DNA of 64,000 nt from Tritonibacter horizontis (GTDB taxonomy: Bacteria > Pseudomonadota > Alphaproteobacteria > Rhodobacterales > Rhodobacteraceae): NCBI RefSeq assembly GCF_001518015.1, contig NZ_LPUY01000074.1, positions 1-64,000 of the forward strand. Reading direction: 5' to 3'. A program made the translations under genes and the position numbers. Under the pieces are notes generated by a model. That model made no database searches, was not told the origin of the DNA, and saw nothing but the letters and a program-made list of their open reading frames with translations. This document shows positions 25,558 to 40,200 of the stretch, piece by piece. Position 1 is the stretch's first letter, and every line of letters begins with the position of its first letter.

Positions 25558-25686
25558 ATGCAAACTCTGCAACGGTCCTACATGGGGCTTGGTCTGCTTA
25601 TGCGGTTGAACACGGACCGGGCGCTGTTTTTCGGTGCGATCAGCGCGGCGCTGCTGTGTGGCGCATGGATCGCATCCGTTCTGTGA
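25558..25686 (+). CDS. 42-residue putative membrane protein
   Basis: A short gene between rseP and bamA: ATG 25558, TGA 25684-25686, preceded by GGGAGC about six bases upstream. It begins MQTLQRSYMGLGLLMRLNTD and ends in one hydrophobic helix (about residues 22-41, LFFGAISAALLCGAW). The basic N-terminal half suggests an N-in orientation. It is followed by a clear terminator, so it is probably its own unit. Not recognised by function; the support is start signal, composition and placement. Confidence 0.5.
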   Translation: MQTLQRSYMGLGLLMRLNTDRALFFGAISAALLCGAWIASVL

Positions 25687-25737
25687 CCTATCGGTTCGGT
25701 ACGCGCCCCTAAGAATTTGGCGCGACCGGCAAAAAAG

Positions 25738-25778
25738 AAAAGGCAGCGGGAACAGATCCGCTGCCTTTCTTGTTTTTG
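25738..25778 (+). terminator. Intrinsic terminator
   Basis: AAAGGCAGCGG at 25739-25749 pairs with CCGCTGCCTTT at 25758-25768, loop eight, followed by TCTTGTTTTT. It separates the 42-residue gene and rseP from bamA, implying bamA has its own promoter between 25780 and 25841. Confidence 0.8.
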
Positions 25779-25840
25779 ACAACAGAGGTCAAACCCGATA
25801 CGCACTTTTTAAGCGGTTACAAAAAATTGGGTTAAAACTG

Positions 25841-28249
25841 ATGGTCTGGGGGAAAAACGCGGCATATGTCCGCGGCGCGCGTCGGAAATCTATTCGGTCT
25901 GTTTCTGCAAAGGGGCTTTTGGGCTCCACCGCAATTTTAGCGGTCGTAGCTCTCGGTATCGGTCTGGCGCCCATGGCGGCGTTGTCACAGGATTTCCGTT
26001 TCACCAACGTGCGTGTCGAAGGCAACCAACGCATCCAGAGCAACACGATTGTTGCTTATACTGGCCTCGCGCGGGGCGAGACGGTCAGTGCGGGTGCCTT
26101 GAACGATGCCTATCGCGGTGTGTTTGACAGCGGTCTGTTCGAATCCGTTGAACTGGTTCCGAACGGCAATACCCTGGTCATCAAGGTGGTTGAGCATCCC
26201 ACCATCAGCCGCATCAATTTCGAGGGCAACCGCCGTCTGAAAGATGATGCGCTGTTCGAGATCATCGAATCCGCGTCGCGTCGCGTATTCAGTGCCGATC
26301 AGGCCGAGCGCGATGCGGCGGCAATCGCCGATCTCTACAAATCTCAGGGCCGGCTGGCATCGACCGTGACCCCACGGATCATTCGCCGCAGCGACAACCG
26401 GGTCGATCTGGTTTTTGAAATTGCCGAAGGCGACACGGTCGAGATCGAACGGGTGTCATTCGTTGGCAACCGGTCTTTTTCGGACCGCCGGTTGCGCCGG
26501 GTGCTGGAGACGAAACAGGCCACCTTCCTGCGCGCGCTTATCAACCGGGACACGTTGATCGAGGATCGCATTCAGTTCGATCGCCAGGTGCTGAACGATT
26601 TTTACCTCTCGCGCGGATATGTCGATTTTCGGATCAACAGCGTCAATGCCGAAGTCACCAAGGAACGCGATGCGGTGTTCATGGTGGTGGATGTCACCGA
26701 GGGTCAAAAGTTCAGCTTTGGTGACATCACCGTCACCAGCGAGTTCGCAGAGGCCGACCCGGACTTTTATCGCAGCTTTTTGCGGCTGAAGCCCGGCGTG
26801 ACCTATTCCCCGATTGTGGTTGAAAACGCGATTACCACGCTGGAACAGCTGGCCGTCAAACAGGGGATCGATTTCCTGCGGGTCGAACCTCGGGTGACGC
26901 GCAACGACCGGGATCTGACGCTGGATATCGAATTCGCCATGGTGCGGGGCCCGCGTATTTTCGTCGAGCGGATTGATATCGAAGGAAATACCACGACCCT
27001 GGATCGTGTGATCCGGCAACAGTTCACCCTGGTCGAGGGGGATCCGCTGAACCAGCGCGAGATCCGAAACTCGGCCGAGCGCATTCGGGCGCTGGGGTTC
27101 TTCTCTGACGCTGAGGTCGACGTGCGCGAAGGCGGCTCGCCCAGCGAAGTGATCGTGGACGTGGATGTGGTCGAGCAACCGACCGGCTCCTTTACCCTCG
27201 GCGGGTCCTATTCCGTGGATGACGGGATCGGTGTCGCCATCGGCATCAGCGAAGACAACTTTCTGGGCCGCGGGCAACAACTGTCGTTCAACATTTCCAC
27301 CACAGAAGAAAACGAAGCCTACAATCTGCGTTTTGTTGAGCCAAAGCTGTTGGGGCGCGATCTGCAATTCGCCATTGATCTTGGGCTGAGCGAATCCGAA
27401 TCGAGCTTTGCCGAATATGATACATCGGCGCTGATTTTCCGCCCGTCGCTTACCTTCAATGCGAGCGATACGACAACGCTGCAAGTGCGGTACGCCTGGG
27501 ACCAGGACGAGATGATTTCGCGCGGCAACGATTCCAATGGAAACCCGGTTGCCGGTCCGGTCTTTCGCAGTGAAATCGCCGAGGGTGAGCGGGTGACTAG
27601 CTCGGTTGGGGCGACATTTACTTATGACAGCCGCCGCACGGGGCTGAACCCAACCGCTGGGTTCCTGATCCAGAGCGGATTTGACTACGCTGGCATTGGC
27701 GGGGACAACGAATACCTGCGCGCAACCAACAAACTGGTGGCGCAAAAGCTGGTTTTCAACGAAGAAATCACGCTGCGAGCGACCTTTGAAGCCGGGTATC
27801 TCGGCTGGCTTGGCGACAACAACAGCCGTACCATCGACCGTTTCCTGTTGTCTTCGGACATCTTGCGCGGCTTTGAGCCTGGCGGTATCGGCCCACGGGA
27901 CCAGTCACCGACGGGCAACGGCGGGACCTATGATGATGCGCTTGGCGGCAACCTTTATGCTGTGGCGCGATTTGATGCGGAATTCCCGCTCGGCTTGCCC
28001 GAAGAGATCGGGTTGCGTGGCGGGGTTTTCTATGACGTCGGCAACCTCTGGGGGCTGGAAGACACCAACGCCGCTGTGGCGGGCGGAGATGTGGTCGGGC
28101 GCAATGGCTCCTTCCGGCATGTGGTTGGCTTTTCGCTGTTGTGGACCACAGGGCTCGGCCCGTTGCGGTTCAACTTCTCCAAGGCCGTTGTCAAAGAAGA
28201 CTTTGACAAAGAACGGAATTTCGACCTGACGATTCAGGCGCGGTTCTGA
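25841..28249 (+). CDS. bamA: Outer-membrane protein assembly factor BamA
   Basis: Central beta-barrel insertase of the outer membrane. From ATG 25841 it has 802 residues. A long N-terminal basic region and hydrophobic signal end near ALSQDF (about 50). Five POTRA repeats cover about 50-390, visible from recurring (V/I)EGN motifs such as VRVEGNQRI, INFEGNRRL and IDIEGNTT. The Omp85 barrel takes the rest and ends QARF, a C-terminal Phe as needed for insertion. The frame is open upstream to 25634, but that stretch crosses the terminator. Confidence 0.94.
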   Translation: MVWGKNAAYVRGARRKSIRSVSAKGLLGSTAILAVVALGIGLAPMAALSQDFRFTNVRVEGNQRIQSNTIVAYTGLARGETVSAGALNDAYRGVFDSGLFESVELVPNGNTLVIKVVEHPTISRINFEGNRRLKDDALFEIIESASRRVFSADQAERDAAAIADLYKSQGRLASTVTPRIIRRSDNRVDLVFEIAEGDTVEIERVSFVGNRSFSDRRLRRVLETKQATFLRALINRDTLIEDRIQFDRQVLNDFYLSRGYVDFRINSVNAEVTKERDAVFMVVDVTEGQKFSFGDITVTSEFAEADPDFYRSFLRLKPGVTYSPIVVENAITTLEQLAVKQGIDFLRVEPRVTRNDRDLTLDIEFAMVRGPRIFVERIDIEGNTTTLDRVIRQQFTLVEGDPLNQREIRNSAERIRALGFFSDAEVDVREGGSPSEVIVDVDVVEQPTGSFTLGGSYSVDDGIGVAIGISEDNFLGRGQQLSFNISTTEENEAYNLRFVEPKLLGRDLQFAIDLGLSESESSFAEYDTSALIFRPSLTFNASDTTTLQVRYAWDQDEMISRGNDSNGNPVAGPVFRSEIAEGERVTSSVGATFTYDSRRTGLNPTAGFLIQSGFDYAGIGGDNEYLRATNKLVAQKLVFNEEITLRATFEAGYLGWLGDNNSRTIDRFLLSSDILRGFEPGGIGPRDQSPTGNGGTYDDALGGNLYAVARFDAEFPLGLPEEIGLRGGVFYDVGNLWGLEDTNAAVAGGDVVGRNGSFRHVVGFSLLWTTGLGPLRFNFSKAVVKEDFDKERNFDLTIQARF

Positions 28250-34049: not shown

Positions 34050-34769
34050 ATGCGCATTCTACTCGTCGAGGATGATCCCACGACAGCGAAAAGCATCGAG
34101 CTGATGCTTACTCATGCGAACTTGAATGTTTACACCACCGATCTTGGCGAAGAAGGGATCGATCTGGCGAAGCTATACGACTACGATCTGATCCTTCTGG
34201 ATCTGGGTCTGCCGGATATGAACGGACATGAGGTTCTGCGTCAGTTGCGCTTGTCTCGTATCGAGACTCCGATTTTGATCCTGTCCGGTGCTGACGATAC
34301 GGAGAATAAAATCAAGGGCTTCGGCTTTGGTGCTGATGACTATCTGACGAAACCCTTCCACCGCGAAGAATTGGTTGCGCGCATTCACGCGATCATTCGC
34401 CGGTCCAAGGGGCATTCTCAGTCCATCATCAAAACCGGCAAGATTTCGGTCAACCTCGACGCCAAGACCGTCGATGTCGAAGGGAAATCCGTGCATCTGA
34501 CCGGCAAGGAGTACCAGATGCTGGAACTCCTGTCGCTGCGCAAGGGCACGACCTTGACCAAGGAGATGTTCCTGAACCACCTCTATGGCGGCATGGACGA
34601 GCCGGAACTGAAAATCATCGACGTGTTCATCTGCAAGCTGCGCAAAAAGCTCAGCACCGCAACGGACGGCGAAAACTATATCGAAACCGTCTGGGGCCGT
34701 GGCTATGTGCTGCGGGATCCGCAAGAAGACCTCTCCACCGGTGGTCCGCGCATGGCTGTCGGTGCCTGA
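34050..34769 (+). CDS. ctrA: Cell-cycle response regulator CtrA
   Basis: OmpR-type master regulator of polar development, motility and (in Caulobacter) replication. In Rhodobacteraceae it mainly controls flagella, gene transfer agents and related traits. 239 residues: receiver domain 1-120 with acidic pocket E7/D8/D9, phosphoacceptor D51 and K101; winged-helix DNA-binding domain about 130-225 ([20 protein letters not shown], then [10 protein letters not shown]). The tail ends MAVGA, a hydrophobic end resembling ClpXP-type degradation signals. Followed by a strong terminator. Confidence 0.96.
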
Positions 34770-37173: not shown

Positions 37174-39264
37174 ATGAGCGGCCGCCCGGAACAGTTGTTC
37201 CCGCTTTTTGCGGAACTGGAAACTTTGCAAGGCGTCGGCCCCAAAACGGCCGAACATTTTGCGCAGTTGAATATAACAGCCCCGCGGGACCTGCTGTTTT
37301 CCTTGCCCTATCAGGTTATCGACCGCCGTCGGCGTGAAACCATCAAAGGTTTGACCTTGCCGACGACGGCGACGGTCGAGGTGACTGTTGGCCAGCATCG
37401 TCCAGCGCGAAACAAGGGCGGGGCCTATCGTATTGATGTCAGCGATCAGGAAACCGACTTTCAACTGGTGTTCTTTCACGGTCGAAGTCGCTATCTGACC
37501 GCGCAACTGCCGGAAGGGGCGCGGCGCGTCGTTTCGGGTAAGTTGGAGCTTTTTGACGGGACCGCTCAGATGGTCCATCCCGATCATATGGTGCCATTGG
37601 CCGAAGCATCAGAGATCCCCGAATTCGAGCCGGTCTATCGGCTGACCCACGGCATTAGCCAGAAAACCATCTTCAAGGCGGTCCAAAGTGCCTTGACCCG
37701 GGTCCCCGAGCTGCCGGAATGGATCGACGCCTCGTACAAAAAACAACAGGCCTGGGCGGATTGGCATACCGCCCTTGCGGCGGCCCATGCGCCGGCTGGT
37801 GTCGAGGATCTAGCACAGGACAGCCCAATGCGTGCGCGACTGGCCTATGACGAGCTGTTTGCGCATCAGTTGACCCTTGCGATTGCCCGCTCTGTCGAAC
37901 GGGAACAGCCCGGGCATCGTTCGGTCGCAACCGGGGCGCTGCAGCGCAAGGTCCTTGCCGCTTTGCCCTATCGCCCGACCGGCGCACAGGGACGTGCGAT
38001 CGAGGAAATCACCGCCGAGATGGCCAGCGAGCGGCGGATGAACCGGTTGCTGCAAGGCGATGTCGGGGCAGGCAAGACGCTCGTCGCCTTTATGGCGCTG
38101 CTGGTGGCCGTCGAAGCCGGGGGGCAGGGGGTCATGATGGCCCCGACGGAAATCCTGGCCCGCCAGCATATGGAGGGGCTGCAGCCCCTTGCGGAAGATG
38201 CGGGTGTGGTGCTGGAAATTTTGACCGGTCGGGACAAGGGAAAGGACCGCAAGGCAAAACTCGATGCGCTGGCGCGTGGGGATATTCACATCCTTCTGGG
38301 CACGCATGCGGTCTTTCAGGCGGATGTATCATTCAATGCGCTGCGTCTGGTCGTCGTGGACGAGCAGCACCGTTTTGGTGTGCGGCAACGAATGGAGCTG
38401 GCAGAAAAAGGCCAGCGCGCCGATGTACTGGTGATGACCGCGACGCCGATCCCCCGATCGCTTGCGCTGACCCAATATGGCGATATGGAAGTTTCGATCC
38501 TGGATGAAAAACCGCCGGGCCGCAAACCGATCAAGACCGCAATCATCAGCACCGAGCGGATGTCAGAAGTGGTCGACCATCTTCGCCGCGCCATTTCTGA
38601 AGGACGGCAATGCTACTGGGTCTGTCCGCTGGTTGAAGAGTCGGAGGTCATGGATCTGACCGCCGCGGATGTCCGGTTCAAGCAGTTGCGCGCCATCCTT
38701 GGCGACGATCTGGTCGGTCTTGTGCACGGGCAAATGCCACCGCGGGAAAAGGACGCTGCCATGGCGGCCTTCCAGGAGGGGCGGACGCGGGTTCTGGTGG
38801 CGACCACGGTGATCGAAGTGGGCGTCAATGTGCCCAATGCCTCCATCATGGTGATCGAGCGGGCCGAGATTTTCGGGCTGGCGCAACTACACCAGCTGCG
38901 CGGGCGTGTTGGCCGGGGCAGTACAGAATCCACCTGCCTGCTGATGTATCAACCGCCGCTGAGCGAAGGCGGGCGTAAACGGTTGGAAGTGCTGCGGCAG
39001 AGCGAAGATGGCTTCCTGATTGCCGAAACGGATCTGCAGATGCGCGGCGCCGGGGATGTCATTGGCACGGCGCAGTCTGGCTTGCCGAGATTTCACATTG
39101 CAGATCTGGAGCAGCAGGCGGACCTAATGGCCGTGGCGCAAAGCGATGCGCGGGCGCTGATGACCTCCGATCCCGATCTGGTCGGCGCGCGGGGCCGGGC
39201 GGCCAGAACGCTGTTGTGGTTGTTACGGCAGGACGAAGCTATCCGTCTGATTTCCGTGGGGTAA
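37174..39264 (+). CDS. recG: ATP-dependent DNA helicase RecG
   Basis: Branch-migrating helicase that remodels stalled forks. 696 residues. An N-terminal wedge/OB domain covers about 1-180 (LQGVGPKTAEHFAQL; VVSGKLELFDG). The helicase core has GDVGAGKT at about 294-301, DEQH motif II at about 394-397, TATPIPRS, and VATTVIEVGVNVPNA with QLHQLRGRVGRG in the second half. It follows ligA after seven bases; both are repair enzymes and probably share a transcript. Confidence 0.95.
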   Translation: MSGRPEQLFPLFAELETLQGVGPKTAEHFAQLNITAPRDLLFSLPYQVIDRRRRETIKGLTLPTTATVEVTVGQHRPARNKGGAYRIDVSDQETDFQLVFFHGRSRYLTAQLPEGARRVVSGKLELFDGTAQMVHPDHMVPLAEASEIPEFEPVYRLTHGISQKTIFKAVQSALTRVPELPEWIDASYKKQQAWADWHTALAAAHAPAGVEDLAQDSPMRARLAYDELFAHQLTLAIARSVEREQPGHRSVATGALQRKVLAALPYRPTGAQGRAIEEITAEMASERRMNRLLQGDVGAGKTLVAFMALLVAVEAGGQGVMMAPTEILARQHMEGLQPLAEDAGVVLEILTGRDKGKDRKAKLDALARGDIHILLGTHAVFQADVSFNALRLVVVDEQHRFGVRQRMELAEKGQRADVLVMTATPIPRSLALTQYGDMEVSILDEKPPGRKPIKTAIISTERMSEVVDHLRRAISEGRQCYWVCPLVEESEVMDLTAADVRFKQLRAILGDDLVGLVHGQMPPREKDAAMAAFQEGRTRVLVATTVIEVGVNVPNASIMVIERAEIFGLAQLHQLRGRVGRGSTESTCLLMYQPPLSEGGRKRLEVLRQSEDGFLIAETDLQMRGAGDVIGTAQSGLPRFHIADLEQQADLMAVAQSDARALMTSDPDLVGARGRAARTLLWLLRQDEAIRLISVG

Positions 39265-39294
39265 TTGCACGCCTCTCCTGGCTTGTGCTGATTT

Positions 39295-39319
39295 GTTCAC
39301 GAATGTTCTCAAAAAGTTC
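39295..39319 (+). promoter_or_regulatory. LexA-type SOS box (GTTC-N7-GTTC)
   Basis: GTTC at 39305-39308, a seven-base spacer, and GTTC at 39316-39319 match the LexA motif of Rhodobacter-type alphaproteobacteria. A further GTTC at 39295-39298 is spaced by six. GAGAAC at 39341-39346 mirrors GTTCTC at 39305-39310, and CTTTAC/GTAAAG (39319-39324 / 39334-39339) forms an inner stem. The box lies 82 bases upstream of the 40-residue gene. Confidence 0.55.
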
Positions 39320-39400
39320 TTTACAGCGACCTCGTAAAGTGAGAACAAAGGGGCAACAGAAGCGTCGCAGGCGCCTGACAGACAGCGGAGAGGTTTCAAG

Positions 39401-39523
39401 ATGGTTACGCAATTCAAATCTGCACTACGCAATGGCCAAACAACGCTCCTTCAGGATGCGATTGGTGCCGCTTCTCTGGTTGTCATGCTGGTCGTCGGCC
39501 TGCATCTGCCCAGCTTGTTCTGA
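39401..39523 (+). CDS. 40-residue membrane protein, likely LexA-controlled
   Basis: ATG 39401, TGA 39521-39523, with GGAGAGG about eight bases upstream, an excellent ribosome site. The protein has an amphipathic N-terminal half (MVTQFKSALRNGQTTLLQD) and one hydrophobic helix (about 20-37, GAASLVVMLVVGLHLP), ending SLF. A LexA-type box precedes it, so DNA-damage induction is expected. SOS-induced one-helix proteins are known elsewhere (SidA in Caulobacter blocks division, TisB in E. coli depolarises); whether this one does either is unknown. No recognised family. Confidence 0.6.
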   Translation: MVTQFKSALRNGQTTLLQDAIGAASLVVMLVVGLHLPSLF

Positions 39524-39668
39524 TCCCCATAGGGTTTGCCTGTGTTTTCATGCCGGGGGCGCCAGCCTCTTGTTTGCCAGGATTGATTGCCTGTTCGATC
39601 CGCACCCTTCGGCCTCGGCCCATCGGTGTTTGGTGTTCCCGGGTCCCGCATGAAGATACTGCCACTGG

Positions 39669-39704
39669 CCGCCGCCATCTGCCCGGATGTGCGGCGGTTT
39701 TTTT
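39669..39704 (+). terminator. Intrinsic terminator
   Basis: CCGCCGC at 39669-39675 pairs with GCGGCGG at 39691-39697, followed by seven T. It ends the 40-residue gene transcript. The stretch 39524-39668 before it holds no convincing gene on either strand. Confidence 0.75.
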
Positions 39705-39747
39705 CTGACTTTGACTGGGGGAACCTGATAAAACAGCGTGGCCCGGA

Positions 39748-40200
39748 TCAGGCGCAATCTGCCTTGAGCGCGGTTTGCATGGCTTCCAGTGTTGCCTCAA
39801 GCGCAAGAAGAATAGAGGCATGCCGGTTCTTGAACTCTCGTGCGGGCATCAAAACTTCCAGCCCGTCAAAAGGCGGCTGCGGCGCCGGCCCGCCTTCAAT
39901 CAGCATCGCTTTCAGTTGGTTGCGCGCGGTCTCCACCTCGGCGAGGCTGCGGCCCAGAATGGCCTGGCCCACGACCGAAGCCGAGGCCTGACCAAGGGCG
40001 CAGGCTTTGACATCCTGCCCAAATCGCGCCACCACACCGTCCTCGACTGCAATATCGACAGTCACGGTGGATCCACAGAGCGGAGAGCGCCGCTTCACCG
40101 TCGCGTCAGGCGTGTCCAGGCGCTGCTGATGAGGGATCTCCGCCGCAAGGGCCAGGATCTTTGTCGAATAGAGTTTGATCAGATCTGTTTCGCCGGACAT
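39748..40200 (-). CDS. Fe-S cluster assembly scaffold, SufU/IscU-like
   Basis: A 150-residue protein of the NifU N-terminal family, which carries nascent Fe-S clusters. Two of the usual Cys contexts are clear: SPLCGSTVTVDI (about 39-50) and VKACALGQASASVVGQAI (about 64-81). The third conserved Cys of IscU in the C-terminal half is not in its usual motif; the only late Cys is in the final KADCA. It may be a divergent scaffold or carrier rather than a true IscU. It converges with the 40-residue gene and diverges from hisI. Confidence 0.75.
   Translation of the reverse strand: MSGETDLIKLYSTKILALAAEIPHQQRLDTPDATVKRRSPLCGSTVTVDIAVEDGVVARFGQDVKACALGQASASVVGQAILGRSLAEVETARNQLKAMLIEGGPAPQPPFDGLEVLMPAREFKNRHASILLALEATLEAMQTALKADCA

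Follow-up and report, generated by a model that had tools for sequence, protein, structure and literature searches.

A 40-codon core gene of the Rhodobacteraceae, very likely controlled by LexA, is a candidate for a DNA-damage brake on division

The short reading frame that follows recG in the window (the whole 64-kb stretch of DNA that was analysed) is, judging from sequence comparisons, a protein-coding core gene of the Rhodobacteraceae, and its control by LexA is very likely. Its product, a predicted single-span membrane protein, appears to represent a new family among the SOS one-span membrane proteins and is a good candidate for the brake on division which the Rhodobacteraceae would apply upon DNA damage. 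The chances that this is a LexA-repressed SOS gene whose product restrains septal wall synthesis and division as SidA and YneA do appear to us about even; the division target is proposed by analogy only.

Results

The locus

The features of the locus are listed below in the order of their coordinates.

37174..39264, plus strand: recG (NF008164, 1106.9 bits), the conserved upstream neighbour
39295..39298, plus strand: third GTTC half-site, 6 nt 5' of operator 1, read in the sequence
39305..39319, plus strand: operator 1, LexA box GTTCTCAAAAAGTTC, exact GTTC-N7-GTTC, in 89/90 homologous loci
39320..39325, plus strand: predicted -35, TTTACA, placed by conservation
39341..39346, plus strand: predicted -10, GAGAAC, within operator 2; conserved, a poor match to TATAAT
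39343..39357, minus strand: operator 2, inverted degenerate LexA box GAACAAAGGGGCAAC (GAAC-N7-CAAC), putatively bound by LexA
39353..39400, plus strand: predicted 5' untranslated leader, deduced from the -10, with the start at about 39353-39355
39387..39393, plus strand: ribosome binding site GGAGAGG, read in the sequence, 7 nt 5' of the ATG
39401..39523, plus strand: gene of the 40-residue single-span membrane protein (reading frame, homologues, coding test and hydropathy)
39667..39704, plus strand: intrinsic terminator, hairpin then T-run, 143 nt past the stop codon
39748..40200, minus strand: NifU/SufU-like gene (family search), the convergent downstream neighbour

The small gene is the single short gene between recG and the convergent NifU/SufU-like gene. 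It encodes MVTQFKSALRNGQTTLLQDAIGAASLVVMLVVGLHLPSLF in 40 codons (ATG at 39401, stop codon included to 39523). A preliminary description of this DNA had listed a 40-codon gene with the ribosome site GGAGAGG, one hydrophobic helix and a terminator, and all of these are present where it had placed them. The terminator hairpin, which is followed by the T-run, has a folding energy of -23.1 kcal/mol (z -3.15, RNA folding); it is absent from the list produced by a simple consensus terminator scan.

The surroundings of the gene are conserved as well. recG is located 5' of the small gene on the same strand in 88/90 homologous loci, in agreement with the earlier placing of the gene right after ligA-recG, and the NifU/SufU-like gene is located 3' on the opposite strand in 82/90. 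Family searches identified ligA and ctrA upstream of recG, the matched CtrA model being the NCBI Rhodobacteraceae-type. Since the small gene has a predicted promoter of its own, its place after ligA-recG probably represents a stable position and not an operon. ctrA (34050-34769) has the same direction, with ligA between ctrA and recG, which puts a gene of a cell-cycle regulator near the SOS gene.

Distribution and coding capacity

When the single 40-residue sequence was used as query, the small protein was found in 239/394 genomes of the family. A profile search detected it in 343/394 (304/347 of the good assemblies), so that the frame is conserved across the family, as a search of related genomes proposed in the preliminary description was meant to establish. 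The profile gave one match per genome in 341/343 cases and two in G342 and G383; 51/394 genomes were without a match, 43 of them good assemblies. In a second sample, drawn at the level of the order and consisting entirely of genomes of the same family, 183/196 had a match at E 0.01, and one genus (g24) accounts for 9/13 misses. Two matches, possibly second copies, were seen in this sample also in G046, G117, G187 and G820; for genomes common to both samples, second matches surface only at the looser cut-off of the 196-genome search. Among 385 genomes of the class the profile gave 7 matches, 5 of them within the family of the source organism, and the other two (E 0.0045 and 0.0085) fall inside frames of 290 and 495 residues and are chance-like.

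Some of the genomes negative by profile carry a diverged relative: in G014, G023, G056 and G058 a match to the promoter pattern (see below) is followed by a diverged one-helix frame of 38-43 residues. G023, which belongs to genus g24 (L281), has kept the promoter and has a diverged 43-residue frame behind it. Similarly, three Paracoccus loci (L143, L159, L176) combine a strongly diverged small protein with a kept promoter.

The homologous loci analysed in detail were 90: the window's own, 29 fetched as matches of the single-sequence search and 60 picked by hand from the listing, which means that better-scoring matches are over-represented among them. Start codons were set by a script near the aligned start. 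Two alignments were used, A1 with 89/90 loci (without L028) and A2 with 51 (the window and 50 of 73 usable loci), and the coding test was restricted to the 76/90 homologues exactly 40 residues long. In this test the mismatches at the three codon positions were 0.418/0.245/0.592, indicating purifying selection on the small gene. Over the final 30 nt of the gene pairwise identity was 0.65, and over the 30 nt behind it 0.29 (76 loci). D19, G22 and L34 were invariant in the 89 aligned proteins. It is the wide distribution seen with the profile, the codon-position signature, the drop of identity past the stop codon and the invariant residues which lead us to regard the frame as a core gene coding for protein. 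That the transcript would be a LexA-controlled small RNA, with the reading frame incidental, is barely conceivable: annotation often overlooks small RNAs, but the coding signature, the near-chance identity past the stop codon and the invariant D19, G22 and L34 speak against it, and a search of Rfam returned no family besides one chance-level match. This match, to OmrA-B at 39619-39705 (18 bits with a cut-off of 40, E 0.87), overlaps the terminator and was dismissed.

Neither 72,556 records of plasmids nor 50,697 of phages contained a match, and a mobile toxin was rejected for this reason, with the limit that a 40-residue query is weak in such collections and distant plasmid or phage copies could therefore be missed. 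By its distribution the small gene is best described as a chromosomal core gene rather than a patchy one.

The LexA operator

By chance, 1.86 occurrences of GTTC-N7-GTTC are expected in the 64-kb window, and 2 were found; one lone box is not significant in a window of this size. The other box, at 26150-26164 on the minus strand, is situated within a long plus-strand frame at 25634-28249 that by eye resembles BamA, and as an operator is probably a chance occurrence.

A chance origin of the box at 39305-39319 is ruled out by its conservation. GTTC-N7-GTTC is present within 150 nt before the ATG in 89/90 homologous loci (the exception is L029), at a box-to-ATG distance of 69-110 bp, whereas the rest of the same loci contained it, on the same strand, once in 384,277 nt. 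When other spacers between N3 and N12 were counted, N6 was found in 82/90 loci and each remaining spacer in 0-3. The frequency of N6 is due to the third GTTC, a half-site that has been kept as well: 80/90 loci contain the triple GTTC-N6-GTTC-N7-GTTC. Both the box and the third GTTC at 39295 had been noticed in the preliminary description, and both are confirmed and conserved. Taking into account that the loci were picked by protein similarity, the box goes along with the protein, another point on which a check had been suggested.

The relation was also examined in the reverse direction. A scan of 84,980 species with the pattern AAAGTTCTTTAC-N15-TGAGAACAAA yielded at least 119 stretches, and 118 of the 119 listed carry the small-protein frame within 330 nt after the pattern; in the single exception only 32 nt of DNA remain there. 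The weakest of the 118 frames, among the matches listed, had E 0.04 (L159, Z set to 1000). The full GTTC-N7-GTTC is present in 116/118 of the listed stretches, a count that is partly circular because the search pattern already includes the second half-site. The listed stretches and the 90 loci have species in common and are not independent. The titles of 80 listed stretches name genera which we take to belong to the Rhodobacteraceae, or are records named only by family, order or as Alphaproteobacteria. These titles and the CtrA model are the basis on which the sampled family is taken to be the Rhodobacteraceae.

Promoter layout and the second operator

A consensus sigma-70 scan of 39200-39800 found 0 promoters (0.2 expected), and the placing of the promoter therefore rests on conservation. 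TGAGAAC stands 20 nt from the end of operator 1 in 84/90 loci and 21 nt from it in 2/90, the other 4 being off pattern. TTTAC follows directly 3' of operator 1 in 79/89 loci and a TTG-type variant in 8; G030 has TTGACA at the -35 place and, as its second operator, GAAC-N7-GAAC without any deviation. Most lexA promoters (L247-L273, inspected by eye) have the form TTGACA-N17-TAGAAC, the TAGAAC part falling within the LexA box. Because the rigid spacing between operator 1 and TGAGAAC resembles that of a -35 and a -10, because TTTAC or TTG stands after operator 1, and because the -10 of lexA likewise lies inside the box, we predict a -35 at 39320-39325, a -10 at 39341-39346 and a transcription start near 39353-39355.

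The second, inverted operator, GAAC-N7-xAAC, is found at a fixed place in 83/89 loci, with C (74), T (4), A (3) or G (2) as x; the exact form (x = G) belongs to L022 and L049. LexA bound to operator 1 and to this degenerate operator 2 would cover the whole promoter. In the alignment conservation is not confined to the GTTC pairs but extends into the spacer, and the stretch between promoter and ATG is variable among the loci.

recA, lexA and genomes without lexA

Operators of recA and lexA were compared in 28 chosen genomes carrying the small gene. recA has an inverted GAAC-N7-GAAC box in 28/28, and lexA has the same type of box in 27/28; in the 28th genome lexA is a split match whose N-terminal piece (L275) has the box. 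In 24/28 recA promoters (L217-L244) the recA box is faced by an upstream GTTC-N7 box within one mismatch, whose second half is GATC in 14, GGTC in 7, GTCC in 2 and GTTC in 1. The arrangement is like that at the small gene, with an inverted LexA box facing an upstream box; one recA example, AATGTTCTCTTTTTGATC...GAACAAGAGGCGAACAAAG, is close to the small gene's AATGTTCTCAAAAAGTTC...GAACAAAGGGGCAACA. The two differ in that the distance between the operators, start to start, varies at recA (22-35 nt) and is nearly fixed (38 nt) at the small gene. Because the box is conserved in 89/90 loci and recA and lexA carry the same operator, control of the small gene by LexA is very likely, and this claim of the preliminary description is well supported.

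With up to 3 mismatches allowed, the promoter pattern was run on 20/51 of the profile-negative genomes and gave 8 matches in 6 genomes, compared with 5 for a control pattern read backward. The matches include the recA promoter in G004 and G109, and in G056 and G058 two further weak matches lie before other frames. Apart from their landing places, such 3-mismatch matches are near chance.

lexA was found in 378/394 genomes of the family and not found in 16, 6 of which are good assemblies. In two of these six, G167 and G029, recA lacks the box even when one mismatch is allowed, and the profile does not detect the small protein; in G167 there is no such frame after recG, and in G029 recG itself was not found. 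G160 and G301 have kept the recA box, which suggests that lexA is probably just unassembled, and in both the small gene and its box are present (the copy of G301 is diverged and outside the profile). G195 has kept the recA box, yet has no copy of the small gene after recG. In G069, where neither lexA nor recA was found, the small gene and its box are present. A Fisher test (profile-negative, 4/6 without lexA versus 39/341) gives P 0.0026, a value inflated by assembly gaps and divergence. The losses in G167 and G029 agree with a dependence of the small gene on LexA, two clear losses being few. These two near-complete genomes (L286 and L292 for G167, L288 for G029) may represent a natural loss of the SOS response. 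The recG match of G160 (L293) contains one in-frame TAG.

These data bear on the possibility that a regulator other than LexA binds the repeat and that the gene stands outside the SOS response. The conservation of the spacer beyond the GTTC pairs, the fact that the whole element marks the small gene, and a link to lexA loss that rests on two genomes would be compatible with it. However, the box exactly matches the published alphaproteobacterial LexA consensus, in 24/28 genomes the same inverted box at recA is faced by a second one that deviates at no more than one position, and the small gene's own pattern recovered recA promoters in two genomes. We consider another regulator very improbable.

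The leader

It had been proposed from the nested dyads GTTCTC/GAGAAC and CTTTAC/GTAAAG that translation may be governed by a structured leader, as in tisB. The dyads are present, and for the window sequence RNA folding of 39305-39346 gives -9.9 kcal/mol (z -2.10). Of 89 loci, five rows scoring under 8 were set aside, and in the remaining 84 the inner stem is complete in 1 and the outer in 68; for neither stem did covariation exceed that of shuffles. The arms of the outer dyad are two LexA-type half-sites facing each other, each of which is conserved alone. The dyads are situated upstream of the predicted transcription start, and the predicted leader itself is not unusually structured (z -0.43, RNA folding). 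A conserved RNA structure was rejected on account of the single complete inner stem and the missing covariation. The proposal of a structured leader controlling translation is not supported by these comparisons, a conclusion which depends in part on the predicted start.

The protein

A single stretch of the protein is hydrophobic, with a mean hydropathy of 2.05 over its best 19 residues. Residues 1-18 have a mean net charge of +1.1, and residues 20-40 are free of K, R, D and E in 75/76, with H35 in 66/76. According to the positive-inside rule, this charge pattern predicts an N-in orientation with the helix ending with the chain. The mean hydrophobic moment of residues 2-12 is 0.48 versus 0.34 for shuffled sequences. 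Between residues 16 and 37 the periodicity of conservation peaks at 100 degrees, that of an alpha helix (P 0.0066); the values for other ranges were 0.0165 (19-37), 0.086 (19-40) and 0.067 (2-18). D19, G22, L26, L30, L34 and P37 fall on one face of the helix, and conservation of a single face suggests one specific partner helix.

The sequence had been described as unrecognised, and indeed no relative above chance was found in Pfam, NCBIfam, PHROGs or PDB. Two low-scoring matches, YgaH in NCBIfam (E 0.0019, 18.3 bits with a cut-off of 124) and DUF826 (E 0.0077, for one member of 51), are attributed to chance similarity between hydrophobic helices.

Proposed function

The following sequence of events is envisaged. 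LexA would shut the promoter through operator 1, just 5' of the -35, and through the inverted operator 2, over the -10 and the start, and upon DNA damage RecA-driven self-cleavage of LexA would open it. The product would sit N-in in the inner membrane, with an amphipathic cytoplasmic segment (residues 1-18) and one membrane helix (about 20-40), and its conserved stripe D19-G22-L26-L30-L34-P37 would dock on a helix of a membrane partner. Docking would delay division, the likeliest partner being the septal wall synthase FtsW/FtsI, as for SidA and YneA. The SulA domain (PF03846) was found in 0/100 genomes of the family, the source genome included, with E. coli positive as control. A division brake appears to fit better than a depolarising peptide because the gene is syntenic and family-wide, one helix face is conserved, and neither an antisense partner nor SulA has come to light. 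Against it counts that the small protein has almost nothing outside the membrane.

The main competitor for the membrane target is a protein other than those of the divisome, such as a protease, a transporter, or a respiratory or signalling protein, that the SOS effector would retune during DNA damage. Conservation of one face would fit any helix-helix partner, and small single-span regulators with many different targets are known, but neither recG nor the NifU-like gene, the two neighbours that are conserved, offers a membrane partner; we hold such a target to be possible, if rather unlikely.

TisB depolarises the membrane, and a TisB- or DinQ-like peptide would, in the SOS response, lower the membrane potential and make cells dormant, perhaps with an antisense RNA as partner. 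The size class and LexA control are the same, and dinQ is described as also having two LexA operators (PMC3567139). On the other hand, the lack of conserved sequence after the gene and the variable stretch between promoter and ATG give no sign of a conserved antisense partner, although a variable antisense RNA may still be compatible with the absence of conserved 3' sequence. Furthermore, the predicted leaders are short (about 21-62 nt across the loci, as calculated from the box distances) and have no conserved structure, the helix lacks K, R, D and E in 75/76 in spite of H35 in 66/76, and the gene is core and not patchy. A depolarising role is, in our judgement, improbable. As a class, the SOS effectors like SidA or TisB, to which the preliminary description assigned the gene, fit the sequence data.

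Returning to the division brake, a more specific version can be formulated, which we put forward tentatively and which is somewhat more likely to fail than to hold: the Rhodobacteraceae would possess a core SOS division checkpoint of their own, a 40-residue one-helix protein unrelated to the named families and controlled by two opposed LexA operators, which would stop septal wall synthesis within the membrane without a periplasmic domain.

Rhodobacter, Ruegeria and Dinoroseobacter serve as models within the Rhodobacteraceae, a family abundant in the sea. In the parts of the open literature covered, no paper names the small gene, and an SOS division brake of the Rhodobacteraceae is not named; work on R. 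capsulatus lexA may mention the gene. The portions consulted of an in silico LexA study of D. shibae do not name it either (PMC6473078). For alpha- and betaproteobacteria a LexA core consisting of lexA, recA, dinB and/or polB, uvrA and imuA-imuB-dnaE2 has been described in a comparative regulon study that covered R. sphaeroides and P. denitrificans; the text of its section 7 names no such small gene (PMC3323433). The case illustrates how easily a 40-codon core gene is overlooked. It provides a precise, single-gene and family-wide candidate for the SOS division brake, which makes the question directly testable.

Comparison with known systems

FtsW is a known target of division inhibitors that span the membrane once and are induced in the SOS response (PMC4211646, PMC13396833). 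DinQ and TisB, the SOS type I toxins of E. coli, resemble the small gene product as LexA-controlled one-span peptides, and DinQ is reported to depolarise the membrane (PMC3567139). The small gene differs from them by having no visible antisense partner or structured leader and by its core chromosomal distribution.

YneA of Bacillus, SosA of Staphylococcus and ChiZ of Mycobacterium share with the proposed brake that they are damage-induced small membrane division inhibitors (PMC13396833). The helix of YneA is described as binding TM7 of FtsW, where low-confidence models put SidA, SosA and ChiZ too (PMC13396833). An outer LysM domain is present in YneA and ChiZ, and YneA needs it to inhibit, while SosA has an extended region required for toxicity (PMC13396833). 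The small protein, in contrast, is predicted to end with the helix.

Another parallel is SidA of Caulobacter crescentus, a LexA-controlled protein of 29 residues that binds FtsW (PMC4211646, PMC12700426). Both organisms are alphaproteobacteria with the LexA consensus GTTCN7GTTC, and both proteins are very short and located, or predicted to be located, in the inner membrane (PMC4211646, PMC12700426). The promoters differ: about 97% of Caulobacter SOS promoters are reported to have one box (PMC12700426), whereas at the small gene one box is accompanied by a half-site and by a second, degenerate box. The small protein differs from SidA in its 40 residues instead of 29, its predicted amphipathic cytoplasmic segment and its conserved D19, G22 and P37.
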